A DNA stretch of 64,000 nucleotides from Eremomyces bilateralis CBS 781.70 (Eukaryota; Ascomycota; Dothideomycetes; Eremomycetales; Eremomycetaceae), in the NCBI RefSeq assembly GCF_010015585.1, contig NW_022985074.1:248001-312000 (forward strand), in the 5' to 3' direction. The position numbers and the translations under genes were made by a program. The notes under the pieces are model-generated. The model made no database searches. It was not told the DNA's origin and saw only the letters and a program-made list of their open reading frames with translations. Positions 12,241 through 64,000 of the stretch are shown in pieces. Positions within the stretch are counted from its first letter, which is position 1. Every line of letters starts with the position of its first letter.

Positions 12241-12480
12241 TGCCTGAGGTAGTAAGGCAGTAATATCGCCTGAGGCAGAGAGCCTCAGAGCCAGAGGGCA
12301 GAGAGGGCGAGGGATAGGGCGAGAGCGGAGATGTCAGGGGGCAGACAGAGGCTGAGAGCCGAGAGAGGGCAGAGAGGGCGGAGAGGCTCAGAGCCGTCAG
12401 AGCCTCAGAGGCTGAGAGCCGTGAGAGCCTGAGAGCCTGAGAGGGCAGGAGGGCTAGAGGGTAGAGGGCCAGAGGGCGGC
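12241..12480. repeat. Purine-rich minisatellite (GAGAGCC / AGAGGGC units)
   Basis: About 240 bp made of imperfect short units such as GAGAGCC, AGAGGGC, GCCTCAGAG and GAGAGGG in varying order on the plus strand. Purine:pyrimidine asymmetry is strong. It lies between the divergent 5' ends of the TFIIF-alpha gene and the DUF6594 gene. The minus-strand open frame across it is low-complexity (Leu/Ser repeats) and is not a gene. Confidence 0.8.
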
Positions 12481-22507: not shown

Positions 22508-23972
22508 ATGTCTACCGACCCAAAGATTGATCTGTCTCAGCAGCCAGCCCTCAGGACGAAGCTGGAGGATCTGAGGCATGAGGACCCTACGACCACCGAA
22601 CCAAAGCCCGATGCTAAGACTACCACCCCCAATGTCACTGCTCCGGAGGCCGAAAAACCGAAGGTTAAAGATCCGGCCCATGATGCCGATCTGATTACTC
22701 CTGTGGTGCCGGCCCAGGGGGCTGCTCCCGTACAGACACCTGCCGCTCCCACGGAGCCCAAATGGCCTGACCTTTCCGAAGACCACCCCATCTCCAAGTT
22801 CCGCCAAGCGCTTCCAGATATCCTGACGAAATCCGGCTACACCGAGGTCTATGGTATCCACCTCTCCGCCGATGATAGCAGCGCAACCACGGTCTTCCAC
22901 ACGAACCTAATCCTTCAGAAGTTCCTGCGAGCCAACGGGAACGACTTGGACAAGGCGAAGGAGCAACTCCTCGACACTTTGAAATGGCGAAAGTCATTCC
23001 AGCCGCATCTACTTGTCAACGTGACGTTCGACGAGGAGAAGTTCGGTGGACTCGGGTATATCGTCCGACTGACTAGTCAGGACACCGGGGACGAGGTGGT
23101 CACGTTCAACGTGTACGGGGCGGTCAAGGACTTCAAGAAGACCTTCGGAGACACGGAAGAGTATGTTCACCGTCTCATCCTTCCACCATCATGATACTAA
23201 CCCGCCCTCCAGATTCATCCGCTGGCGCGTCGCCCTCATGGAGCGCTCCATCGCCGCCCTCCACCTCACGTCCGCCACCGAGCCCATCCCCGACTACGGC
23301 CTCGGCGAAGACCCCTACTGCGGCATCCAGGTGCACGACTATCAGAACGTCTCCTTCCTCCGCCAAGACCCGCACGTCAAGACGGCCTCGCGCAAGATCA
23401 TCGACCTCTTCTCGCGCGTCTACCCGGAGACAATGTCCAAGAAGATATTCGCCAACGTCCCCTTCTACATGGCCTGGATGTTCAACGCCATGCGCTTCCT
23501 GCCTGCCCAGACCTACGCGAAGCTCGAGGCCGTGACGGATGGGAAGACGTTGAAGAAGAGCCTGGGCGGCGACGCGGTGGATGCGCAGATTCCGGCAGCG
23601 TATGGGGGTTCGGCGGCGTCGTTGGAGGAGGTCGCGGAGAAGCCGAAGTTGGAGAAGGAAGGGAGCGACCTCATCATGAAGATTTCATCCGCGGTAATGT
23701 CCGAGCCAGTCGACGGTCCTCCTGTGCATGGCGGCATTGCTGGCCTTGCTGGCACCCCTGCAGCTGACGCTTCGTCCGACACTCCGTCTCCTGTCATCGC
23801 TTCTTCTCCCACTGCTTCTCCCGCCATTGCTTCCTCTGCCAGTGCTCCCCCCGGCCCAGGGGCCACGACAGATGGCGCCACCCCGACCGTGATCGACGCT
23901 GCAGCGAGCGCCCAGGAGACGGAGCCCGCAACCACTCTCGCTGAGCAAGCCGCTCCTCCTCAGAAGGCGTAA
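22508..23972 (+). CDS. sfh5: Phosphatidylinositol transfer protein, Sfh5-like (CRAL-TRIO)
   Basis: Exons 22508-23160 and 23213-23972, 470 residues. The first 100 residues are Pro/Thr/Glu-rich. The CRAL-TRIO N domain includes LQKFLRANGNDLDKAKEQL and LKWRKSFQPHLL. The Sec14 lipid-binding domain follows: FGGLGYIVRLT, then across the intron FIRWRVALMERSIAAL, DYQNVSFLRQDPHVKTASRK, YPETMSKKIFANVPFYMAWMF and SLGGDAVDAQIPAAYGG. The C-terminus is an Ala/Pro/Ser/Thr-rich tail. Sfh5 is a non-classical Sec14-like protein; the yeast protein moves phosphatidylinositol at the ER and plasma membrane and has also been reported to bind haem. The intron (23161-23212) has donor GTATGT, branch ACTAAC and acceptor CAG, with the glutamate codon split in phase 2. 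Confidence 0.85.
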
Positions 23973-32083: not shown

Positions 32084-33945
32084 TCAGCTCGCCACATCTT
32101 CCGAAAAATACCTCTTACTTCTCACGCTCCTCCCCACCGTCTTCATCTCGGGCGGTAAGTTCGTGTGATGCACCACATGCGGCCGGTACACCGCGTCCAC
32201 CGGCGGCATCCAATCGTCCAGGCCCAGCGGGAAATACTCGTACAGCAGATCGGCCGACTCGTCCGGCGATGACAGGTGATTCAACGAAAATGACGGGGCG
32301 CGGGCGAGTTTCGGTGGCTTCTGCCCCGATGTGGTGTGGATGTTGGCTTGCATCTGCGCTTGGCTGTGATGTTGGGAATGTAATTGCTGTTTGAGAACTC
32401 CTGAGGATAGGTTTAGTGGGGACTTGATGGAAGTGCTCCGTCCGTCGGTCGCTCCGTCGGCTTCGTCGTCGAGGCTGAGTTTGATCGGAGTATTTAGGTG
32501 TGACATGCCGCGGGGTAGGTTGTAGCGTAGAAGGTCGGGGGATGAGCGTGCGTAGACTGCTTCGGCGTTGTGGTGACAGAAGGCAGGGACGTCAGGAGGG
32601 AGGGCAGTCATGGCGCCACCGCTGGAGGCCAGCATGGTCTTCCATTCGAAAAATTCCGGTGTGATTTGGAGATTGGGGGTACCGTTTGGGTCGTACTGGA
32701 AAGGGAGACTAGGATTTTGATTTTGTGGAAGGGAGAGGTGATTGGGAGGACGAGTGTGGGTCGGTTGATGTTGTTGGGTACTGGTTATACTGCCAGTAGA
32801 TTCAACAGTATCGGCGTGAGAAGGTTGTTGGTGATGACTGCTCGACGCAGCGCCTGCCTGGCTGTGAGCTTTCCGAGCAGCGCTGGCGGCAGCAGAGGTA
32901 CCGATGGGGAAGTCTTTGCGCGATTGAAAGTTTCGCGGTGAGCGGCCGCGGACGATGATGGCGCCAGACCGGACTTCGCAGAGACTGATGCGAGCGCCGG
33001 TGGATAATGTTGCGATGACCTTCAGGTGCACAACAAAGTGTTGCTGAAGTTCTTTCCGTCGACCGTTGTTGGCTGTCGCGATGCGGAATTGGAGACGTTT
33101 CCAGGCGATAGGGAAGGAGACAAAGTCCGCGTCGATTTCTTGGCCTGCCATGAGGTCTAATGGTATTGATTGAGGCTCTTTCTCGGTCTTATCTTCAACA
33201 ACTGAAGGATTGGCGGATGCCGGCGTCTTCCATGGGACGGATATGATCTTGACTGGGTTCCCTTCCACCGACTCGGTTGCGGAAACGGACAACTCCTGCC
33301 CTATAATCTGCACTCGCTCACCCTGCTCCGTGACCGCGTACCGTAGACCCCTCGGAAGCGTAATGCTGCCGGTGATTTGAAATAAATTCCGCCGATAGCA
33401 GGTCAGCTCGGTAGGCTGTGGACCTGCTTCCCCAGGCTGCGCCCACGGAGACTCGGCTAGGAAGAACATTCCATGCAACTGCGCGGACATGTTCATTGTC
33501 ATGCCTCGACACGTATAGTCGAGGACACCGCAGTTGTACGTTGGTAACGAGAAACTTAATAATTTGTGTCCTTGCTCTATGGACGGACTTTCCGGACCGT
33601 TCGCTTGATCTGCTTGAACAGGTGGTTCATACCCACTCATCGCATCCGAGAAAGGATCATCGAACCCGTTTGGAAAGCGTTTGAGCGCGGCATGGCTGCC
33701 CATACTTTGACTGAAGACGCCTTCGTCGCTCCTGTGCGACGGTTAGTCCATGAACGTCCATGAGGCCTTGAACATTGAATGAGCAGATGGACTTGCCCTG
33801 CGAAAGTATCGGCGTCATAGTTCGAATGGTGATCATATTGTTCTAACGGTAATAAAGGAACATGAAGAGGATCGACCGGATTTACATTCGGCATGCTCAT
33901 CGGAGCTGCCAGGTAGGACATCGTGACGGTATCAAAACCGTCCAT
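32084..33945 (-). CDS. ron1: NDT80/PhoG-family transcription factor, RON1-like regulator of GlcNAc catabolism
   Basis: Minus-strand exons 33945-33797 and 33731-32084, 598 residues. The intron has a GC donor (GCAAGT) and CAG acceptor. The p53-like NDT80 DNA-binding fold spans about residues 85-300 and shows ELTCYRRNLFQITGSITLP, SATESVEGNPVKIISVPWK, WKRLQFRIATANNGRRKELQ and GAIIVRGRSPRNFQSRKD. It is not of the XprG/VIB-1 type, whose DNA-binding region reads differently. The N-terminal part (TYNCGVLDYTCRG, MSAQLHGMFFLAESPW) and the His/Gln/Ser-rich C-terminal half fit the RON1/NdtA branch. In Trichoderma reesei the NDT80-like factor RON1 controls a GlcNAc catabolic cluster that also contains a GH3 gene and dac1. 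Those two genes lie just downstream here, which is the main reason for the symbol. A. nidulans literature may use ndtA or ronA. Confidence 0.82.
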
Positions 33946-36900
33946 GCTGGCAGATTTGGTACCTCTACCGGCAAGAGCAGTAGATGAGATAGAAATCGGA
34001 TCGATCGCATGCGACTTGGCTCGAAGAGTAAATCGAGTAACTCGTGAATACGAAAGAGCTTCTATCTTTAGGGATCAATAGTGAGCTTGGGGAATGATCA
34101 GGACGTGTTCGAGTGCGAGAAAGGCGGGGTGGTTCTTGAAGGGGACGAAGTACTGTTGCGGGATGTGCATGCAGTGGCGCGAGGAGTTGTTCGATCAGAC
34201 TTCCAGAAGAGGCCCCATGAATTTGGTCTCATGCTCCGAAGCCGTGCTAGCTGGAGCTTGTCTTGATGCGCAATGCCGTAAGGTGGAAAATTTCCCCCAG
34301 TGACCCTGGTTCCTATTTTCTCCTTCCAGGGAAGAGACTATCGGATGGCGGATGGATGTGGTGATGATGAGAAATCGGTCCACGCTCGCATGCAATCCGC
34401 AGTCAAGGACTTCCTAATATTGCCGGAAGATGAAGGTAATTCAGCACAAGCAGCTGGTCTCGCGTTTGGCTGGTCCCTCTGTCTTGGCCTGGCGTGGAGG
34501 CGATATATAATACGGGTCGAAAGGGGGCATCCGAGTATCAATCGAAGCTGCGAAATATTCAAATCACGCTGAAAGGTGCAGCGGGGGCGTCGGTTCCGCT
34601 GAGGCTAAAGGTTGAAGTTGAGGAGCACAGGGCAGGGCATGCGACTAATAATGGAAATATCGGGGCAGGCTAACGACCAACGCCTGCAAATGGCCCACTG
34701 GGGTAGTCCTTAACCCCGACGTGTTGCACAAACGAGGCGAACAGGAACAAGCAGCACAATTCCAGAAAACCAGCGGGACGAGGCCAACCCTTTGGTGCGT
34801 CACGCAGGTAGGTCGTGTAACTCAGAACGAGGACCAGTTCGGGTCACATATGGATAGGCGAAGATTGGGCAAATCAATCCCTGGCTAAGCCTGATTCTGT
34901 GCTGAGCTTCGGCAAAGCCGCTGATGATAGCATGACGGTTGCGGCCAGGGGAGGATGGGAGGGATGGAGGGTGAGATCAGGGAGGACGTGGCGACGTGGT
35001 CCGCGTTCATACCGGGAGTTGAAACTTGTGGCTAGACGAGGATTGTGGTGGATTATGAATGCGCTGGCCGATTCAGAGTGACCAGACTTCGAACATACAA
35101 TGAAAATATCGTGAAATAGGGTACGACTTGGTGTTGTCCGGTGTTGCGTTCATATCCAGTATAGGCATAGAATAATCGGTACAGTAGTACGGAATACGGA
35201 TAAATTGATACGCTGGATGTAGATAATTCTGCCCTCCCCACAGCAGGATAATCGTTCTTAGCGGATCGATTGGAATCATAACAGAAGACGCGAAATGGCG
35301 GCAACCCGTCACTACTAACGCTTTGTAGTTAAATCCGTTAGTAAGCCCTGCTATGCCCACCAACTTCAATCTGCCCCAAGTGCCGTCATCCGGTCTGGTC
35401 TTGAAATGGGACCCCGACCATGGGAGGGCTCCGCGGGGTAAAGGGTCAGGCACCAGGGATCTACCTATCATCTAACCGTCTTAGAGATCTCTCCATAAAT
35501 AAGAGGGATATTAAAAACTCCAGACAGTCGACAGAGGCAGAGCATGGAGCAAGAAGATAGGCACCTTGCGAAGATACCTTGCGTACGTATCTGTTGGGTG
35601 TTGACAGAGCAATTCCTCCATGATGCCTCCCCAATCTCCTGAACCCTGATGCAAGACACGTATGCGCGAATCTGAAAACGGAAGGTTTCTGGATCATGTA
35701 TGGAAGCTCAAAAGACGCCGCTTCAAAGCGCATATAGCGGTCCTCGCGGCTGTAGTCGGAGTTGCCCGCATCAACTGCAGCCTGTCCATTCGTCCAGCCA
35801 AGTGAGATCCATCACCAACCCTCGAGATCCTTGGAGAATATCTGCATGCGACAGCAAATGACCGCATATACATATCTGTATCTTTGCACGTGAACAGCAG
35901 CAGTCGTTCCCCCCAACCCTCGCTAAAGGCCGCGAAGTTGAGTCGAAAAGATGAGGTATCGCATGGAACTTGCGGTAAACAGGCAGCTCGGTAGATAAGG
36001 ATCTGTGTAGCGAACCGACGATGCCCAGAAATAGGGAATTGACAGTGGTGACGACAAAGTCCCGCATCGAAGATCGCATTCTTGGCTGCATCTCGTCCCC
36101 ACGGCGCGAACTGCAACGGGCAGCTCGAAAGCCACCCCTAGTGACCGCCAAAGTATCGAACATTCTGTTGTAACAAGCGTGTCCAATGAGCAATCCTCTC
36201 CGGATTTCGAGGCTCAGGCAGCATGGGTCCGTGGTCCAATAAATATGAGTGATACCAAAAATACTCGGTTCAATCAAATCGCCGCTACGGTCGGCTTTCT
36301 CATTCTCGTCGAGATGCGAGGCCATCATGTGGTCAATGTGCAGAGAGCTCCGAAGCCCCAAAGCTTCAATTCCCGACACGCTCGGCTGGGTGGTTGGCTG
36401 TACGCTTCACCGCTTTAGAACCATGCATTTGAGGATAGTCGGAAACTGAAGTATTGGCCGGGTATCGGGTGAAGGCAAAAAGAGGAGAGTGCTTTTATTC
36501 CAATAGCGGACGTGGTTGCTTAGATACGAGGACTGAAACAGCACTTCAGATTCATTGAGCGTTTGCGTAGTTCCATTGGTAGACTACAATGTCCGCACGA
36601 CCCACCAGAAGGTTCATGAGTTTGATAAAACATTAAAAAAAAATAACTGCGACCAATACTCCGTGTGGCACGAGGTATACCAGGTGGAGGAATTCCCCCA
36701 TTCTCCCCAACGCCGTTGACGTAATAATGATACCTCTGTCTGACCAAAAGCTTACGAAGCAATGGTAAGGGATATGAGACAAGACGAGGACGATAGTCTA
36801 TCCCCATGGCTTGTTGACTGCCGTCCAAGTCCCGAAATTCGTCCTTGGCATCTGACAGGCAGGTTTGTCCGCAAAGCACGGATATTGGATGACCGAAAGG

Positions 36901-37003
36901 GGGGAAAGCAGAAGAGATGCTCCATAGTTCGACGCCCAACCGAAGAATCGCTCACCCGGAATGGCTCGTTAAGGCTTGTAAATGAAGGAGTATGGCACAG
37001 CCA
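33946..37003. other. Large intergenic region upstream of the RON1-like gene
   Basis: 3.06 kb between the 5' end of the NDT80-family gene and the 3' end of the GH3-GNAT gene. Open frames up to about 200 codons on the minus strand (35771-36379) have mixed, Cys/Arg-rich composition and no recognisable domain. A CACAAA hexamer at 34727-34732 matches the core of the NDT80 middle-sporulation element, but a single hexamer is weak evidence. Confidence 0.45.
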
Positions 37004-40000
37004 TCATAGAGGTGGGACCATCGTCCAAGTCGCCGCATCGCAGGATACTTCCTCGAAAGTATGCATCGGTTCAAAGCCCATAGCCGACAAGCCGTCATCG
37101 TTGCCATCGCTATCGACCTATGGCACAAGTCAGTTATTGGGCAATACCAAATCGAGCAGAACCATCCCAACGGAGTGCCAGATCCCGATCAGCAGCAAAC
37201 TGAACAAACAGAAAAATAGAACTTACAATATCAAGCAAACACGCATTACACCCTTGGCTCCTAAGCTGCTTGATGCCCAGCATAATCAACCCCTGCATCA
37301 ATGTCGAATACTCCGCTGCGCCAGGAAATATCACCGGACTCGAAATGCCGCCCGCAGAGTCGCCAAAGTCTCGCAACGCTGGCACGTACTCTGCTAGTCG
37401 CGAATGCGCATAATACAGCACCACCGTCCCCACGATTGCGTCATCCTCCGGCCTCTTCGCGCGGATGATGCTACACGCCGTCGGATCCGTTAGCGCCAAC
37501 TTATACACCTCTGCCAGCCCTTGGCGGTTGTTCGTCTTGATATGGTCGAGGATCGGCCCGGAGTACTCCCAGCCGTAGACGAGGTCGAAGTCTGCCGGCG
37601 CGGACTTGAGGCTTTTGGCGACGGAATCAGGGGCAGCCCATTCGCGGAGATTGCGCGCCACCATGCTGCACACTGGGCGGGACAGCGCGGTGTTCCAGCC
37701 GAGGTTGGCGAACCAGGTGCGGAGGCGCTTGCGCTCGGCGGAGTGGCCGCTGGGAATGCCGAGGAAGATGTTGGGGATGCGGGTGCCGAGTTGGAAGCGC
37801 TTGATACCGTCGCGCTGGAGGAGGGTGCGGATGGCACGGTTGTGCAGGCTGTGGCCGATGGACAGCTTTCGGCGTCCGGGGTCGACGAAGAGGGAGCCGA
37901 TGGCGCCGGTGCCGGTGCTAGTGAAGAAGTAGGTGGAGCAGAAGCCGTAGAGTGCTTGGGTACTGCTGTTCCGGACGACGAAGTGGGCTTCGATGACATC
38001 GGGGTTTTGTAAGAGGAAAGAATTCGACGTCGCTGATGAGAGTTCGGATCTCTGATTCGGTGGGCCTCCATGGCCTTCCACCACGGTTTTTATAAGGTTG
38101 TCTAACGCGTGAGAGTCCCGCTCTTCGTTGAATGCTTCTACGAGCCAATGATGCTTGCTCTGGTTCAGTTTCTGACTCTTGGAGATCGTTCCTGGTAGTG
38201 CGCCAGTTGGATTCAGTTCGCCATACAGCACTTTGACCAGTGAGTTCAACGCCGTTTCCGTAAAATCATAGGTACAGATGTATGTTCCGATCGTTGGATC
38301 CATAGCGAAGTCATACGGAGAGCTGACGGCGACGACAACAAGCGGCTTCTCGCGCTTCTCGCCGCCCGTGGAGTATTGCATGTTGCAAATCATCGCAACA
38401 TGCTTCGTAAAGCCATGCTGATAGAGGTTGCGATTCGCATCAGCTGTCAGGATAATTATTGCACTCGCTCGATTGATCAAGTTCTCATGGATCGGCCGTA
38501 CACCATTCGCGGTATAAGAAGTGTGTAATATCCGACCACTCCGCTGCCGAGCTAGTGAGCGGCCAAGCTCTCGAAACACTCGCTCGCCGCTCATGACAGA
38601 GCTACTCCTCTCCCAGGACGCTGGCTCTGGCGAACCAGCCACGAGCGTTTCTGATAGAGCTCGAGATGCTGCTGAAGCAGCGAGAGGCTTGACAAGCGGC
38701 GTTAGTAGCAACAGCTCTTCTTCGGCCTCGACAACATTAGAGAGGGGCAGTAGCCGATTCTTGTCTCGGACGACTGTGATGCTAGAGTTGTAAGCCCTCG
38801 TCGATAACGCTGTGTGAGATGGCTGAAGAGTCGACAGATAGCCGATGCCCGGTGGGTTCAACGCCTTTTCCCACGACGTGCATTTAGCCTTCATGTTAAG
38901 AACACGACGCAACGATTGCTTGATCCGTGCCTTGGAGATCATGGAATTTTCAATCCCAAGCTTCAAGCCAGCGATGGCCTCCTGCTGAACGGAAAACGAT
39001 CGGCATAGCAAGACCATATCACATCCCGCATTAACCGCCATGACCGTGCCGCCCTCGACGCCGATATTATGGCTGAGTGCTTCCATCTCCAAGCACTCGG
39101 AGACCACGACGCCATTGAACTTTAGGTCCGTCCGTAGAAGTCCGTCAACGACCTGATCGGACAAACAAGCATGCATGACGTTCAAGCCGGCTGAAGACAT
39201 GGCACATCCACCAACCATCATGGAATCTAGACCTTGAGCGATGGCATTGCGGAAGGGTATCAAAGCACTCAAGCTGAGTTGCTCCAGCGACTCTGTGATC
39301 AAGGGGACATCGAGGGAAGATCCAAGGAACTCAAGGTTGCCATATGAAGGGAAGTGTTTGCCTAAGGTGGCCAGGCCGACATCCTTATATCCCTTCATTG
39401 AGGCAACTCCATAGGATGAAACCTCTTGAGGGTCATCCCCTGCGCTCCTAACCCCCATTAGCTGGTTGCGGGAATTGGTAAGGACATCTAGGCACGGTCC
39501 GAAGATCCAGTTGATGCCACATGACGAAATCTCTTGGGCGGTTGCTTTCGCAACTTCATACGCCAACTCGCTAGACCCGGTGGCCGCAACGCCCATCGCG
39601 CTGGGGTACTGGCGGATATAAATCTCGTCGAAAAGGCTGTTGACGCCTCCATTCTCTTGATCGACCCCGATAGCAAGCGGAACCGGATGGCCTGCATCAT
39701 AGGCGCACTTCTGGAGCTCATACACTAGCTTCGTCGTGTCCTCGGCAGCTGCTGGCAAGTTAATATAGCAAACATGAGTGTCCGGGTGTCCGGGTGCCAG
39801 GGCATATATATGCTTCGGGAAACCGGGATGTAACTCACACTTCAGATTCTTTGCCGTCAATAAAATGGAACCTAAATGATGTTGCTGAATAAGAGTACGG
39901 ATCTGGGGCGTGACAGAGGTTCCATCAAATCCCATCATAAACAATTGGCCCTATACCTATTAGTCTCGCGTTCTGTAACCTCGCGGCGAAACGCTGCAAC

Positions 40001-40086
40001 CTGACATGCCATCACGCGCGTGCGGCAATCTAGGTCGCGATGAAGGAACGTACCAAAGTCCTATAATCGAATTCATCGTAAGTCAT
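37004..40086 (-). CDS. GH3 beta-N-acetylglucosaminidase (NagZ-type) fused to GNAT acetyltransferase domains
   Basis: Minus-strand exons 40086-40054, 39950-39839, 39751-37227 and 37117-37004, 927 residues. The 87-nt intron at 39752-39838 is in frame without stops and could be mistaken for coding. Removing it restores the conserved AKNLKSAAEDTTKLVYELQ. Residues about 1-350 are the GH3 barrel: GQLFMMGFDGTSV, PLAIGVDQENGGVNSLFD, GKHFPSYGNLEFLG, VVVSECLEMEALS. The GH3 C-terminal domain follows (SSITVVRDKNRLLPLSN to GALPGTISKSQ, about 370-580). Two GNAT-like units complete it (about 610-740 with FVDPGRRKLSIGHSL, and 770-927 with GIKQLRSQGCNACLLDI and AMGFEPMHTF). It should release GlcNAc from chito-oligosaccharides, probably inside the cell because no signal peptide is visible. 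It is divergent from the deacetylase gene. Such GH3-GNAT fusions are known in fungi. Confidence 0.9.
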
Positions 40087-41097
40087 CGCGTCAATCCAAT
40101 GCCCAGGATGCTGGAACGCCGACGGTGCAGTGGAAACTGGGAAGAACTCCTGCACGGAGCCAATCCCAAACACCTTGGGCAATGTGCAAGTCATCCAACG
40201 GGAGCAGGAACGGAGTCTTACCGATCCAAATCGTCCCACACGGGATCCATCCGCTCTTCTTTCCCCACCATGGCGCCAGATCAATACGGTAGGCTTGCAT
40301 AGGGGGAGTGCGAGCTCAACGTTGCAGCGAAGAGTGACAGTCTGAACGACAGCGATTTCGGTCGTTCGAGAGGACTAGGGTGGCGCTACGTCGTATCGCA
40401 AACTTGCAACAGCACGAAGGCGGGCGAGAGGGTGAAATGCAGCCCTACCGATATTGGCATGTTGTAGCGCAATCTAGGGCGTATCGACTATCAACCGCGC
40501 GTTCAAGAAAGATGATTTCTGAAAAAGATATCGTAGGTCTATTCAGCGTCTCCAAGCGCCACCGTTTGTTCGGGCTTCAGAATCATGGGGTTGCATTCGC
40601 AGCATTATTCCTATCTGACGCCACGATTTGTTATCGAATCGGCTAGTCCGCTGGTTGGGGTCCAGTTGGGGGCGGGGAAAGCGACAAATGTGGCGTAATT
40701 GAAATTGCGACGAGTCGCAGCAGACCGGGAAGATGTCCTTCGTCCCGATGATAGTACAACCCCGGATTCTTTTCCATCTAAATTCCATGTCACCATAAGA
40801 GATGACGATAGATGAGTGGGGTGTAGATAGATAAGGTACCGGTACTCAAGAATGCGACACCTACAGTTGATATCCACATACAATTGCTCCATCGGTCAGC
40901 AGGCAGTTGGACGTAACATTCGACGTCACCGAGGCGATTTTCTATTGCAACATCGCCATTCTTAGGTAATGGCTATTGGTACGGTATATACTATGCATTT
41001 CCTTCGCTGCGAATTCTTGCTGTTCCTCTTTCGTTCATTCGTGTAGGGTAGAACCTACACGAATCGTTCCTCCAATAGTACTTGTTTGTTCATCGAT
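40087..41097. promoter_or_regulatory. Shared divergent promoter of the GH3-GNAT and GlcNAc-6-P deacetylase genes
   Basis: 1.01 kb separates the two start codons and holds no convincing gene. The arrangement suggests joint control of the two enzymes. A CGCAAA hexamer at 40397-40402 fits the CRCAAA core of the NDT80 element. A short direct/inverted pair of GTGTAGG/CCTACAC lies at about 41041-41060, just before the deacetylase gene. Regulation by the neighbouring NDT80-family factor is inferred from the T. reesei cluster, not shown here. Confidence 0.55.
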
Positions 41098-42631
41098 ATG
41101 CCGGCCCAAGTTCTCCCTTCTGAGTCTTATGCGAAGAATGGCGTCGTAAAACTGACCAACTGCCGCGTTGTTCGTAGCGATCGGCTTGTTGAAGAAGATA
41201 TATGGATGAGCTCACAGACGGGCAAGATCTTGAATGGGCAACGAGAGTTCTTCGACAGTCGAACAGAGCCGGATGAGACGGTTGACTTAGGAGGCCGGAT
41301 CGTCTGTCCTGGCTTCATTGAGACCCAGCTCAACGGTGCATTTGGTTTTGACTTCTCTGTCGTGCCAGAAAATCTGTCAGACTACAGCAAAGGCCTGGCT
41401 CACGTCAACAACCTGCTGGCCAAGACAGGTGTAACATCCTATTTGCCCACAGTGACAAGTCAACCTGCCAGGGTCTACCAAACGGTAAACCGGAATCTAA
41501 GACTCCAAACTATCGAGGCCATATCCTGACTTTATGCAGGTCTTACCTTTCCTCGGACCCAGTGGTGCCCTCCGTTCTCCATCTATTGGTGCCGAATCAC
41601 TTGGAGCTCATTGCGAAGGGCCCTTCATAAGCCCCAAGCGGAACGGCATCCACTTCCTTTCAAACATCCTAGATCCAGCTTCCGGGATCTCCTCCCTTGA
41701 GTCCTGCTATGGAACCGATAATCTCCAGGCCTCCACCACTCCTATCAAGGTCATCACCCTCGCACCTGAACTCCCCAATGCCGTTCCTGTCATCGAAGAA
41801 CTATCTGCGCGTGGAATCATCCCGTCTATTGGGCACACGGATGCCACCTACGAAGAAGCCCTTGCTGGCATAAATGCGGGAGCAAAAACCGTTACTCACC
41901 TATTCAACGCCATGCGACCACTACACCACCGCAATCCAGGTGTCTTCGGTCTACTTGGCACCGCTCCATCTGCACTCGCACACTCGATCGACCTAGGTTC
42001 AGATACTCCCAGCGCTCATCACGACCCACCTGCCCATGAAACGTACACGAAGCCATACTTCGGCATCATCACTGACGGCATCCACGTCCACCCCAGCGTC
42101 GCAACCCTCGCCTACTCCTTTCACCCCGACGGCATGATCATCGTAACCGACGCCATGCCTTTCCAGACCTACCCCGACGGCCTCTACCCCGCCCCCTACG
42201 GCTCCCACATCCGCAAATCCGGGAACGTGCTCACGCTCGAAGAGTCATCCCGCCCCGCGGTTCCGAGTGGCAGCACCTCACCGGAATCGGGAAGCCCGCC
42301 CGCCACGCCGGCGGAGGGGGTTATAGCACCCCGAACCAGCTTCGCGGAGACGCAGGGGCGGCTAGCGGGGTCATCGAGCTCGTTGATTGAGTGTGTGGAG
42401 AATTTCTGGAATTGGGTCGGGCCGGAGGTGTCGTTGGCGAGGGTGTTGGCTACGGTGACGTCGACGCCGGCGAAGATGTTGGGTTGCTATGGGGCGAAGG
42501 GATGTCTTGAGCCGGGCGCGGATGCGGATGTGGTGGTGTTGAAGGGTGGGTTGGAGAGGAGTGGAAGGAAGACGTTGAGGGTGGCTGAAGTATGGAAGTT
42601 TGGCGCGCGGGTGCATAAGGGCGACGTCTAG
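41098..42631 (+). CDS. dac1: N-acetylglucosamine-6-phosphate deacetylase (NagA/Dac1)
   Basis: Exons 41098-41484 and 41540-42631, 492 residues. It belongs to the amidohydrolase superfamily (bacterial NagA). Visible landmarks are GGRIVCPGFIETQLNGAFG (the strand that normally carries the first metal site, here ETQLNG), GAHCEGPFISPKRNGIH (metal-binding Glu), IIPSIGHTDATYEEA (His), VTHLFNAMRPLHHRNPG (His) and the catalytic Asp in IIVTDAMPF. The end, AKMLGCYGAKGCLEPGADADVVVL, is the usual NagA C-terminal beta-sandwich. It removes acetate from GlcNAc-6-phosphate to give glucosamine-6-phosphate, the second step of cytosolic GlcNAc use after phosphorylation. The deaminase and hexokinase that complete the pathway are not in the window. 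A Ser/Pro-rich insertion near residue 400 is typical of fungal forms. Confidence 0.94.
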
Positions 42632-44259: not shown

Positions 44260-46145
44260 ATGATTGCTAAGCCAATCGTTCTTTCCGCGCTTGCGTGTAG
44301 CGCGGCGGCTGCTCCTACGTTCGGCATGTTAAGCCGCCTCGGTGGTGGAGGTGGTGGAGGTGGTGGAGGTGGTGGGGGTTTTCCCACTGGCGGACATGCT
44401 CACGGCGGCCACGAGGGCTCACCCGCAGGGGGGAGCGGTGGCTTTTCGTTGCCATCAGGTCTGCCCTCTGGAGGCAGTGGTGGATTGGCTGGTCTATTAG
44501 GTGGTGCGGGTGGTGCCTCTGGTGGTGGCCTGCCTTCGTTGCCTTCAGGCACTCCCTCATCCGAAGACTCCGGTAGCGGCTCTGGCAGCCCTGCATCCGG
44601 ACTAGGTGGCCTGAGTGGCGGTTCAGGTGGTCTGTCAGGATTGTCTGGCTTGCTTGGAGGTGGTGCGGGTGGTGGTGGTTTGTCAGGATTGTCTGGCCTT
44701 CTTGGAGGCGGCGCTGGTATGTACACCACTTCCTTGGTCCATCGAATTGGTCTAACAATTCCCAGGTGGCTCCGGCCTTAGCGGTCTCCTTGGTGGCCTT
44801 GGAGGTGCCGGAGGCGCCGGAGGCGCCGGAGGCCTCGCTGGTCTCAGCGGAGCAGGAAGCACTACAGATGCACCCACGACAACCGAAACCAACGAAGCTC
44901 CAGCCTCAGCGGGATCTTCTTCTCCTGCCCCCGCCGGGGAATCATCCGGAGAGTCTAGCGCGCCCGGTGGGCTCAGCGGTGGCGCCGGAGGCTTGAGTGG
45001 ACTTAGTGGTAGGCTTTGATCAAAGTCATATTCTTAGACTCGACTGACTGGGAGTAGGATTACTCGGTGGCGCCTCTGGTGGGTCTGGCGGCCTAGGTGG
45101 ACTTAGTGGTATGCCGATTGAGATTATATAGTTAGACATGACTGACTGTTACAGGATTACTCGGCGGTGGCGCTGGCGGCTCTGGCGGCTCTGGCGGCTC
45201 TGATGGCCTGGGTGCGCTTAGTGGTATGCTGAATGAACTCATTAACCTGGACTCGACTGACTGAGAGTAGGCCTGCTCGGCGGTGGCTCTGGTGGCTCTG
45301 GTGGCTCTGATGGCTCTGGTGGCTCTGGTGGACTTGGCGGTATGCTTGACTGAATCCGGATACTTGGATTTGACTGACAATAACAGGCATGCTTGGTAGC
45401 CTCGGTGGTTCCAGTGCATCCGATATCAAGGAAAACGGCGAATGTAAATCAGTCGCCCTGATCTTCGCTCGTGGAACTGGTGAGCCAGGCAACATGGGCT
45501 TCGTCGTTGGTCCCGGCCTTGGTAGCCAGCTCAAGACGGCTTTGAACAATGATGTCATGCTCCAGGGCGCGGACTATACCAGTGAGTCACATAAAAGCCG
45601 CGATGGTGGAATTATTCTAAGACATATACAGCCGACTTCAGCGGCGGTGGTGCTAAGGATATCATCGCCACTACTCAGCAACTCAAGTCACGATGCCCCG
45701 ATACTAAGGTCGTCCTCGGCGGATACAGCCAAGGTGCCATGCAAGTTCATGACGCTCTGGGCCAGGTCGGTGGTGATGTCGCTGTAAGTGTCCATGGCAG
45801 AGTTCATCCATACTTCGTACTAACGAACATTAGGCCGCGGTTACCTTTGGTGACCCCTATAGCTCAGTGGGCTTCGGTGGTGGTTCCAGCCTCCTCAGCG
45901 GCTTCATGGGTGGCGCCGGATCCGGCGCCGGATCCGGCGGCGGCTCTGGCGGCAGCTTCAACGCCGAGAATGGAAAGGTGTTCTGCTCCACCGGCGACTT
46001 CATCTGTGGACTCATGCCCGGCGGCAGCGGTGGTTCCACCTCGTCTGGCTCTGGCTCTGGTGGCCATCTTTCCTACTCTAGCGATGGCAGTATCCCGGAA
46101 GCAGTGAAATTCATCGTGTCCAAGGTTGGCGGTGGAGCCGCGTAA
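44260..46145 (+). CDS. Cutinase-family esterase with long Gly-rich N-terminal region
   Basis: Eight exons: 44260-44716, 44766-45008, 45058-45108, 45155-45223, 45271-45339, 45387-45581, 45632-45783 and 45834-46145, giving 515 residues. A signal peptide (MIAKPIVLSALACSAAAAP) leads into about 300 residues of Gly/Ser-rich repeats (GGLSGLSGLLGGG), much longer than the short pro-region of usual cutinases. The catalytic domain starts near residue 305 with CKSVALIFARGTGEPGNMG. The nucleophile is Ser394 in GGYSQGAM, the Asp is Asp467 in CSTGDFICG and the His is His489 in GHLSY, so all three triad residues are present. Another Gly-rich insert (GSGAGSGGGSGGS) lies between Ser and Asp. The enzyme should be secreted and hydrolyse cutin or other polyesters. 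The Gly-rich part may act as a spacer, cell-wall anchor or adhesive region. The first six introns are all phase 1. Confidence 0.9.
45058..45386 (+). repeat. Tandem exon-intron duplications inside the cutinase gene
   Basis: Three consecutive units each hold a phase-1 exon of 51, 69 and 69 nt and an intron of 46-47 nt, with starts at 45058, 45155, 45271 and 45387 (periods 97, 116 and 116). Exons begin with a GLLGG-coding start and end in a (L)SG or (L)GG codon. Introns share the donor GTATGC and an internal GACTGACTG-type sequence near the branch point. The intron at 45009-45057 has the same internal sequence. Confidence 0.85.
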
Positions 46146-60075: not shown

Positions 60076-61601
60076 GGTGGGTGATGGAAGACTTGGAGAG
60101 GTAGAAAGACTTCTTTCGGGAAAGTTTATCGAATGGAGATGTTTTTGTTGCTTTGGCACTGGACAGACTGTTGAGGTTGAAACGAGTGATGCTGGGAAAA
60201 ACAAACAACTGGACGAAGAACAACGCTTTTATATCTCGATTCTCGACGTGTTGGCCATGAAGCAATGAAACATACTAGCAATGATCGCAAATTTAACAGG
60301 ATGTGGCCGAAGTCACCGAAGCCTGTATCTCTCGTATTCTGATATTGGCCATTGCCGCTCAGGGGAACGCCAGTCTGCGATTCCGGCATTCCGCCACTCC
60401 GGGGGCCAAAGGAGGCACCAATTGCATAACAGCCACCTGCCACCAGGATCGACAGGTGCACAGAGCCTCATGCCTGTCGCCATTGGGATTGTAAGGTTAC
60501 GCGAGCAGCGAGTTTGGCGAGCATAGAAGTGATATGGTCACGAATAGTGGACGAGCAGATGGCGTGTAATCGATTGGTATTTACGTATGCGTGCCTCATT
60601 TCCCAAGACTAATCCTTAAAGAAGAAGAACAATAGGAAAGTGAAGAGTTTGACTTGTGTCTTCTCATAGGGGTGGTCACGCGACCTTTCTCGGAATGTAG
60701 ATTGGTGGCTTGTGGGGAAGGTTTTGTCCCGTGGCGCTAGTGTGTTAGATACACCTTACAAATTAGATTCGGTGTATTATTAGCCCACCATGCCCTATGG
60801 CGGATTGGCGGTGGCTTGGGAGTGGAATGCGCCTCGTCGGGTCTGTGCTCTGGGGTTTCTTGCGCTAGTGCGCTACAGCACTGGTGCGCTAGAGCGCTGG
60901 CTGCTGAGTGCTGAGTGCGCTCAGCGCTAACTGCTCAGCGCTCATGCGCTGGCAACGGTGCTGCGCAAATCCCGTGGGCCATGGCAATTGGCATCTCTGG
61001 ATTCTTGCCTCGGGAAGATCTCGGTCTAATACCCACGGACGGACCGCAGCAGTTTGAATCACTCACTTAACCGGAGTCATCTCCAAAGACATGTCCACTG
61101 TGACGAGTACTTACCTATATCCGACGACAACGGTGAGTCAAAAGCACTTCTGCTATCCTATGAATTATACCATCAAGGCATCAAACACCAATTCCTTAAG
61201 TATTTCGTGACTCATGTAGCGTGATCATCTTCGTTGAACCTCGCTTGCAGATCCACTGCCTCAAGTTCCTGGATTGACCAGTCACCAAGACACTCAGCGC
61301 TATGGACGTATTTACATCCGCCACATCCATCGCTATATCAAGCAGTTGTTCTTCATTTCTGTCATTGTTCTATCGGTCTCGCTGAAGTCATTGCAGTACT
61401 CTTTCCTGGCGGAATCTACAAGTATTTCCAGTCCATATCGGTCTTGGTATTCGGTTTCGAGACTTCAATTGCTGTTTGGCACCATCTATTTTCAGGGCAA
61501 TCCCTAGACTTGGCTCCCTCGTGTTATATTTTATTATCAGAGTTTTCCTATTATTTCAGTCGATTCTATATCAGCCAAAAGGATTTGCATAGTCTCCCAC
61601 C
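60076..61601. other. Intergenic region, divergent flanks
   Basis: 1.5 kb between the small secreted protein gene and the EEP/poly(A)-polymerase fusion gene. It contains the GCGCT-rich array listed separately. A 156-codon plus-strand frame at 61234-61704 overlaps the start of the next gene in another frame and is not supported. Confidence 0.5.
60861..60955. repeat. GCGCT-rich palindromic array
   Basis: Eight copies of GCGCT within 95 bp, several inside the palindrome AGCGCT and others in TGCGCT, mixed with CTGCTGAG and TGCTGAGTG half-repeats. The sequence could fold into nested hairpins. No protein-coding sense on either strand. Confidence 0.7.
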
Positions 61602-64000
61602 ATGGCGAATCCCGGCAACCCGGTTGACGCGATTTCTGCGACGGTCGAGAAGAATAGTTCTCGGGTTATCCCAATCACGGAGGGAGGCGAAGATGTTTCA
61701 GTGAGATTTATGGGTGTAATACTTCGTTTAGCATGAGCTGAATCTGTCTCAAGGCTAGTGATATATCTCAATCAGCACCACCAACAATGTGCCAAGCGCT
61801 GCGATTCTCAACTTCCGAGTTGCGGTGGCTACCAACTGAAGCAAGCGTCTCGCAAGCAGAAATACAGTCAATGCCGAGCCAGTTTTCATACTCGAGCTAT
61901 AACGTTCTGATCGACTCTAACCATGCATCATCGACCGAACGAATTGCACTTCTGGCTGAGGCGATCTTGTCTAATGAAGCGGCTGATGATGTGCTACTTT
62001 TGCAAGAAGTATCCGACGACTTCCTCTCAAAACTCCTAGCACTCGATGCAATTCGCGAGCGTTATCCATATGTTTCACATGGACCTCCTGACCAAGATGA
62101 TATCCCTTCCTTTACCAGCATGCATAGCGCTGTCGCCCTCAGCCGTTGGAATTTCAACTGGTATTCGCTTCCATTCAAGCGACAACACAAAGGAGCTGTC
62201 ATCATCTCTATTCCAGAGATCTATAGGGAGGATGAAGACGAAGCATATCCCCTGGTTATTGCTGGTATCCACTTGGTCTGCGGACTGACTGATGAATCTG
62301 TCGCTGCGAAGAAGTCACAGCTGGCCACTCTGATATCTCATCTTCAAAAGCACCATCCATCGAATCCGTGGATAGTTTCTGGCGGCTTTAATCTCACGAC
62401 CTCTGCATTTACCATTGATCAAGCACTGAAAACCAAGTCCATCTCCTTGCAGGCTGTCTCAACCCTCGCTTCACTCGACCACATGCTCTTCGACGCCTCT
62501 CTTCAGGATGCGTATTTTCTCGCTCCAATCAATTCCACCAGCGTGAGTAAAGTCCGCCTCACCCATGCGGCGATGGAGGAGCTGTACGAAGGCGAACAAG
62601 GCGCAACTTTCGACCCTCTTCATAACCGTATCGCAGCCGACATAGTTGGTACGGGCATGAACCGTCGTCCCCAACGGTATGATCGGATATTGTTCAAAGA
62701 CGCCGACGTTTTGCGTCTCGGCTCGTTCAGTATGTTTGGATTGCCGGAAACCTTACGGGAAGGAACGGTAGGCAACGATACCCCCAAAGGGAAGGAGCAG
62801 TCACCGCAAATCGGCTATGGGAGCGGTCACTGGGGTGTCAGAACAACATTCAATGTTGCATGCAAATCTGATTCTACAGACAGCGCATCGCTATCGCTAA
62901 AGCACCCATCTTTCGTTATGCCTCCGGTACCGGCCACCATTGTTACCCACCCTCTGGATGACTTCAACGCAGTTGTCGAGTGTCTGAGGCAGAATCCTTT
63001 GCATCTCACTACAGAAGACCAGGCCAAACGCACCGAAATCTATGTTCTGCTGAAAATGATCCTGAACCAGACTCTATCAGGAACCCCCAATGCTCAACAA
63101 GGCGCATCATTTGTCAAGTTTAAGATAGAGCTAGTCGGATCTGGGGCGCTAGGTACTGCAGACGCCTTGTCCGATATCGATATCATCTGCCTCGGTGCTG
63201 TCAGCCCACCCATTTTCTTCTCCCTCGCTATTAGTCGATTAAAGAAAGCGAAAGACAATCCCTACAATGTCACGATCCTCAGAAAGGTCGATGCTTCAAG
63301 CGGTACAATGCTTGAACTTCTCGTTCGGGGAATTCGGGTCGATTTGCATTACTGCACCGCAACCAAATTCCTAGAAAGGTACGTATCTCCTGAACAAGCT
63401 GGTCCAGAGTTTTGGTTACTAATACTTGCTTCAGGTGGCCTGAATCGATTTATCTGGCTCACAACAATCTAGCTTATCGCTTGTCGGGCCAGTCCATCGA
63501 CAAGCTTCAACCGTTGCGAGACATCCTCTACCTCAAGCGGACGATCCCGGATATGGCCAAGTTCCGCCTAGCAGTGCTCTTCCTCAAGGCATGGGCGAGG
63601 GGTCGAGGCATCTACAGCACCAGATTCGGATACTTGGGAGGTGTCCACATCACACTCATGCTGTCCTCCATCTACAAATCTCTGCTCCACCAAAGGGGTC
63701 ATGACCTGTCGATTCCGGGATTGATTGGGACGTTCTTCACCTACTACAGCCAATTCGATTGGAATAAATACATGGTGTGTGATCCGCATATGCCATACGA
63801 TGGCCGGTACTTCAGATCAGCTCAGGAACCTATGGTCATCCTGACGATGCACGCGCCAAAGAAGAATGTCGCAAAGTCAGCAACAGTGCCGACCGTGAGG
63901 GCGATCGTCTTTGAACTCTCACGCGCCGCCCACGCAGTAAGAGCGTACACCGACCCCTTGAAGTGGTTCAACTATTGCACTACTAGTTCTGAGCTCCGAG
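61602..64000 (+). CDS. EEP-nuclease-fold / poly(A)-polymerase-like fusion protein (3' end beyond the window)
   Basis: Exons 61602-61713, 61776-63378 and 63435 to the window end, at least 760 residues. Residues about 75-395 look like an endonuclease/exonuclease/phosphatase domain: SYNVLID (Asn80), LLLQEVSDD (Glu115), AGIHLVCG (His), VSGGFNLTT, RYDRILF and GSGHWGV (His389). A nucleotidyltransferase domain follows: LVGSGALGTADALSDIDIICLG with Gly-Ser and Asp504/Asp506, a third Asp in IRVDLHY (Asp560), then the poly(A)-polymerase central helices (DMAKFRLAVLFLKAWARGRG, YLGGVHITLML). The order resembles fungal multidomain proteins proposed as RNA-repair enzymes, which often continue with a 2H phosphoesterase and an MJ1316 domain. 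Those parts would lie beyond the window. The first intron uses GTGTAA as donor, which is less certain than the rest. Confidence 0.8.

Follow-up and report, generated by a model that had tools for sequence, protein, structure and literature searches.

How does a gene come to carry four short introns that resemble one another, each interrupting a repeated protein motif at the same point? The question is raised by a predicted cutinase gene of the fungus Eremomyces bilateralis CBS 781.70, located at 44260..46145 on the forward strand of the window, the whole 64,000-nucleotide stretch of DNA that was analysed. Judging from the nucleotide sequence, we hold with good confidence that the four similar predicted introns probably arose via tandem duplication, inside the cutinase gene, of a unit of about 100 bases consisting of an exon and an intron.

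The predicted cutinase gene and its array

Spliced at seven predicted introns, positions 44260-46145 give a 1548-nt open frame in eight exons, encoding 515 aa. The sole Pfam domain in this protein is Cutinase (PF01083) at residues 316-510, scoring 102.3 bits and so exceeding the cut-off of 25.9. It is encoded by exons 6-8 (45387..46145, forward strand, delimited by the open frame and the Pfam match), a region that holds the predicted introns i6 (45582-45631) and i7 (45784-45833) on the same strand. S394, D467 and H490, presumably the catalytic triad of the predicted cutinase, show no variation in an alignment of six sequences. N-terminal of the domain lies a region of about 300-320 aa, mostly encoded by exons 1 and 2, which are separated by predicted intron i1 (44717..44765, forward strand, 49 nt); exons 3-5 contribute 63 aa of this extension.

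Upstream of the gene, an NDT80/PhoG-type regulator (32084-33703, reverse strand), an open reading frame in which a glycoside hydrolase family 3 domain is fused to an acetyltransferase domain (37134-39944, reverse strand) and an amidohydrolase (41534-42631, forward strand) adjoin one another, a trio spanning 32084-42631 that we take to be reminiscent of the fungal N-acetylglucosamine catabolic cluster. Elsewhere in the window, an open reading frame at 8068-8796 matches the TRI12 efflux-pump family (40.7 bits) and probably represents one exon of a gene for a major-facilitator transporter, and another at 61787-63472 carries an endonuclease/exonuclease/phosphatase domain together with a nucleotidyltransferase-like part that falls below the cut-off (20.4 vs 21 bits).

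The array occupies 45009..45386, as the first-pass annotation had placed it, with all of its parts on the forward strand. It opens with intron i2 (45009..45057, 49 nt, donor GTAGGC), predicted from the open frame and pairwise comparison, and continues with exon 3 (45058..45108, 51 nt), intron i3 (45109..45154, 46 nt), exon 4 (45155..45223, 69 nt), intron i4 (45224..45270, 47 nt), exon 5 (45271..45339, 69 nt) and intron i5 (45340..45386, 47 nt). The spliced open frame bears out three exons of 51, 69 and 69 nt in phase 1 at both ends, and exon plus intron lengths of 97, 116 and 116 nt likewise agree with what had been described. Introns i3, i4 and i5 are all predicted, share the donor GTATGC and were recovered by a genome pattern match. 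The common branch region had been claimed in a form that holds in part: GACTGAC is present in all four predicted introns i2-i5, but the branch region of i5 reads GACTGACAA. GC content is 37-45% in the introns vs 63-70% in exons 3-5.

Likeness of the introns and of their coding flanks

The introns had also been called nearly identical, which they are not: pairwise identity among i2-i5 is just 61-73%, or 59-71% on a MAFFT alignment. Likeness of this degree was compared with a background of 45 intron-like sequences of 45-50 nt, drawn from 264 kb of this genome, made up of twenty 10-kb stretches and of the window after masking of the gene. The mean pair score of i2-i5 was equalled by 10 of 200000 random background quartets, and their minimum by three; the few background pairs with very high scores (42.5 at most) probably stem from candidates that overlap. 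With the donor and the branch-to-acceptor part removed, the score was still equalled by only 19 of 50000 quartets and by none of 20000 shuffles, so that homology extends past the splice signals for the set of four, as in repetitive introns. The i2-i5 set is therefore alike above the background of unrelated introns, a comparison on which the first-pass annotation had staked its reading, and its remark that the intron preceding the units (i2, with a donor of its own) is internally alike to i3-i5 stands as well.

Single pairs are unequal in this respect. Per 5000 shuffles of the inner part, the observed score was equalled once for i4-i5, twice for i2-i4, and 29, 44, 62 and 190 times for i2-i3, i2-i5, i3-i4 and i3-i5. 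When two further bases before the branch were dropped, the counts per 2000 were 3 (i4-i5), 13 (i2-i4), 66 (i2-i3), 77 (i2-i5), 115 (i3-i4) and 250 (i3-i5), and likeness is weak in the single pairs involving i3. In the shuffle comparison neither i1 nor i6 resembles i2-i5, the inner part of i1 scoring no better than shuffles, and i7 is slightly like the array (117, 177, 792 and 176 of 2000 shuffles against i2, i3, i4 and i5).

The coding sequence around the introns is repetitive too. All of i2-i5 split one point of the motif Leu-Ser/Gly-Gly^Leu/Met-Leu, after base 1 of the Gly codon. An expression for this motif, written post hoc when the sites were already known, matches the spliced protein eight times; a predicted intron is present at four of these sites and absent from the other four. 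The intronless copies, whose limits are approximate and which all lie on the forward strand, are an LAGLL at 44482..44508 (corresponding site after base 44491), two LSGLLGG copies at 44634..44709 (sites after 44647 and 44695) that form a 48-nt direct repeat of 81% in exon 1, and a further LSGLLGG at 44770..44797 (site after 44783). Over 27 coding bases of flank, the intron-bearing four have a mean identity of 0.741, which exceeds that of every other quartet among the 70; equal position and phase in each repeat are thus accompanied by alike exon flanks. The residue preceding the site is a serine encoded by AGT in three of the intron-bearing copies and a glycine in the fourth. Among the intronless copies it is alanine in the first, a TCT serine in the two exon-1 LSGLLGG copies and an AGC serine at 44783, the last belonging to the same codon group as the AGT of the intron-bearing sites. 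Given their TCT serines and their lower identity to the intron-bearing sites (0.52-0.59), the exon-1 LSGLLGG copies seem to be a separate expansion.

Origin and age of the array

Copies outside the array were sought in the genome (26.6 Mb, 62 contigs). The pattern GTATGC, 18 to 30 nt, GACTGAC, 4 to 10 nt, AGG had six matches, three of them in the array, against one for a reversed control; the inner parts of the other three are unlike i2-i5 (best 271 of 2000 shuffles). The commoner pair GTATGT and TGCTAAC had ten matches, none near one another. A 138-nt unit query found four places, all within the cutinase locus. Allowing up to three mismatches, the 3' half of i2/i4 had at least two genome matches, both in the array (reversed controls, five), and that of i3 at least one, also in the array (controls, none), these mismatch-pattern counts being possibly lower bounds. 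The search with i2 and its flanks returned only the self-match and missed even the sibling introns i3-i5, and equally diverged copies elsewhere may therefore be overlooked.

These results bear on the main rival, in which a mobile, introner-like intron entered four copies of a pre-existing intronless exonic repeat separately. Intronless motif copies are indeed present in exons 1 and 2, and, as far as the excerpted sources go, introner-like elements are known in Dothideomycete fungi (PMC4457414) and introners in Pezizomycotina (PMC9860276). However, the searches with the unit, with i2 plus flanks and with the 3' halves gave no dispersed copies; copies across different genes, the mark of introners, were not found by these searches of limited sensitivity, and the three other donor-plus-branch matches lack inner likeness. 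The flanks are moreover alike beyond what insertion by itself explains. Within that limited sensitivity we reject insertion as the main account and regard it as unlikely.

The coexistence of intron-bearing and intronless copies in one gene could also reflect an ancestral array with introns in all units, which later disappeared from the copies of exons 1 and 2, for example through recombination with a reverse-transcribed message. However, loss confined to 5' introns would be unusual, and the apparently separate expansion of the exon-1 LSGLLGG copies, with their serine codons and low identity to the intron-bearing sites, speaks against an originally uniform array, which leaves intron loss very improbable to our minds. 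Less probable still is that short introns of separate origin resemble each other by chance or through shared splice signals. In favour of this, introns are commonly constrained to a short length and a CTRAC branch site, i7 bears a slight likeness to i2, GACTGAC recurs in the intron-like sequence of a paralogue (described below) and the inner part of the i3-i5 pair is weak. Against this stand the shuffles of the inner parts taken as a set, the want of such likeness in i1 and i6, and a motif position that is identical four times; for the set i2-i5 chance likeness is rejected on the inner-part shuffles and quartets.

Tandem duplication of the exon-intron unit is thus the best account of the four introns, and it had been proposed as the way in which the Gly-rich region grew; that wording overstates its contribution, exons 3-5 amounting to 63 aa of about 300. 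We suggest that a single ancestral phase-1 intron lay in the linker that adjoins the enzyme domain, and that this intron and its flanks were copied through unequal exchange or replication slippage until there were four. Each further copy would add 17-23 residues to the Gly-rich linker with the frame kept; copying lengthens the linker without a frameshift because the units are in phase 1 at both ends and the exons are multiples of three.

The array had further been described as a minisatellite whose unit carries its own intron. A living minisatellite is not supported because the intron copies have diverged: identities of 61-73% speak against recent homogenising turnover and fall short of the highly alike units of a minisatellite or VNTR. 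Tandem Repeats Finder reported no array of about 100 nt at the locus. Elsewhere in the window, tandem repeats of short units (8-31 nt) occur at 12381-12477, 23780-23853 and 60868-60950. Within the gene, 9-nt repeats in exon 4 (45169-45202) and exon 5 (45282-45331) have 95-96% matches and are likely the youngest length changes. Exon 3 differs from exons 4 and 5 by 18 nt, equal to two 9-nt steps, and together with the close 9-nt repeats this makes it likely that recent length change proceeded by such steps. The duplications themselves would then be old, subsequent change in length being chiefly 9-nt slippage within exons.

As to the order of the duplications, two measures disagree. In their final 22 nt, i2 and i4 agree at 20 positions, the sole close stretch among the introns, and likeness is unevenly distributed along this pair (p 0.005 by Fisher's test for this one pair out of six, without correction). 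The closest coding flanks, in contrast, are those of i2 and i3 (0.89 over 27 nt), so that the closest pair differs by measure. This mosaic of i2/i4 tails and i2/i3 flanks may reflect a step of two units, or else conversion.

The arrangement has predicted consequences for expression. By computation, retention of any one of i2-i5 ends the reading frame ahead of the enzyme domain (at residue 237, 258, 287 or 301), and an active enzyme would therefore need all four to be spliced. Skipping of any of exons 3-5 leaves a frame of 452-515 aa, and all eight skip combinations stay in frame, in agreement with the frame safety claimed at first pass; exon skipping would merely shorten the linker. It is conceivable, if rather doubtful, that the intron acts as a portable, frame-safe spacer, by which the Gly-rich arm of a secreted enzyme is varied through recombination and through exon skipping between near-identical splice sites. 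If this reading were true, one fungal gene could give up to eight in-frame forms, with linkers differing by up to 63 residues.

Relatives, paralogues and known systems

Relatives were collected by two protein searches, the first scoring the 7990 candidates with most words in common and the second using residues 306-424 as query (96 proteins). The closest proteins are cutinases of Venturia, Trichodelitschia and JGI contigs, with 48-56% identity over the part searched, matches that point to a fungus, probably close to these Dothideomycetes. In the six closest (P0001-P0006) the extension before the domain measures 65-148 aa vs about 320 aa here, and the array is absent from their protein records; P0003 was excluded from the alignment of relatives and examined singly. 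Loose copies of the motif occur twice in P0002 and once in P0006; one of those in P0002, GLGALSGLL, stands immediately before the domain and is a plausible seed. A domain anchor was found in 96 of the 100 proteins from both searches. Going by these protein records, 28 of the 96 have a Gly-rich extension (at least 100 residues, at least 25% Gly), and a strict LSGLLGG-type motif in the extension is lacking in 90, occurs once in five and four times in one. This last protein, a cutinase of Cytospora paraplurivora (P0059), carries a repeat of a different kind, its extension being another, GGSGTDTSGLGGLL-like tandem repeat; such cutinase arms therefore seem to expand more than once.

Within the genome, a Pfam search gave 36 exon-level cutinase matches, and the 420 bases upstream of the match were inspected at 12 loci, corresponding to 10 genes. 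Only at one of the 12 (L019, G000:C5:329936-330244) is a Ser/Gly-rich stretch separated from the domain by an intron-like sequence. This paralogue has a Ser/Gly/Thr-rich extension, and its 68-nt intron-like sequence, in phase 1 by eye, holds GACTGAC and is weakly like i2, i3, i4 and i5 (291, 79, 49 and 85 of 2000 shuffles).

If the duplication account holds, the cutinase array is a small, clear case in which intron number rose by copying of whole exon-intron units and not by new insertion. The gene's own intronless siblings of the repeat would serve as an internal control, and the introns, being under little coding constraint, would help to trace the history of a low-complexity repeat that the coding sequence barely resolves.

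Several known systems share parts of this architecture, each compared here on the excerpted text of its source. Tandem duplication is able to build a new intron (PMC4974935), and there too it increases the intron number of a gene; in that case, however, an intron is newly assembled across the duplication, whereas in the cutinase a whole existing intron was seemingly copied. Fungal introner-like elements are likewise alike introns recurring in one fungal genome, but they spread to different genes, whereas the cutinase copies found are confined to a single array and have flanks that are alike (PMC4457414, PMC9860276). The human LPA kringle IV type 2 repeat is also a coding tandem unit bearing its own introns; that unit is 5.6 kb long with a pair of introns, and alleles carry anywhere from 1 to about 40 copies of it, in contrast to the diverged cutinase unit of about 0.1 kb (PMC11462820).

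In the open-licence literature, surveyed by titles and abstract openings, no fungal gene was recognised in which tandem units carry introns. The closest precedent comes from spiders, in the repetitive introns of their MaSp2 and flagelliform silk genes. In Argiope MaSp2 and flagelliform silk, as here, Gly-rich units are bounded by alike introns within one gene (PMC9779670). The silk introns are homogenised, with a mean identity of 97.6% within a MaSp2 gene (94.3-99.7%), unlike those of the cutinase array (61-73%), which comprises only four introns and exons of 51-69 nt in a fungal enzyme gene (PMC9779670). Alternate introns resemble each other in some silk genes (PMC9779670), a pattern that the i2/i4 likeness faintly echoes. 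The cutinase array thus appears to be a fungal example, small and old, of the repetitive-intron architecture of spider silk genes.
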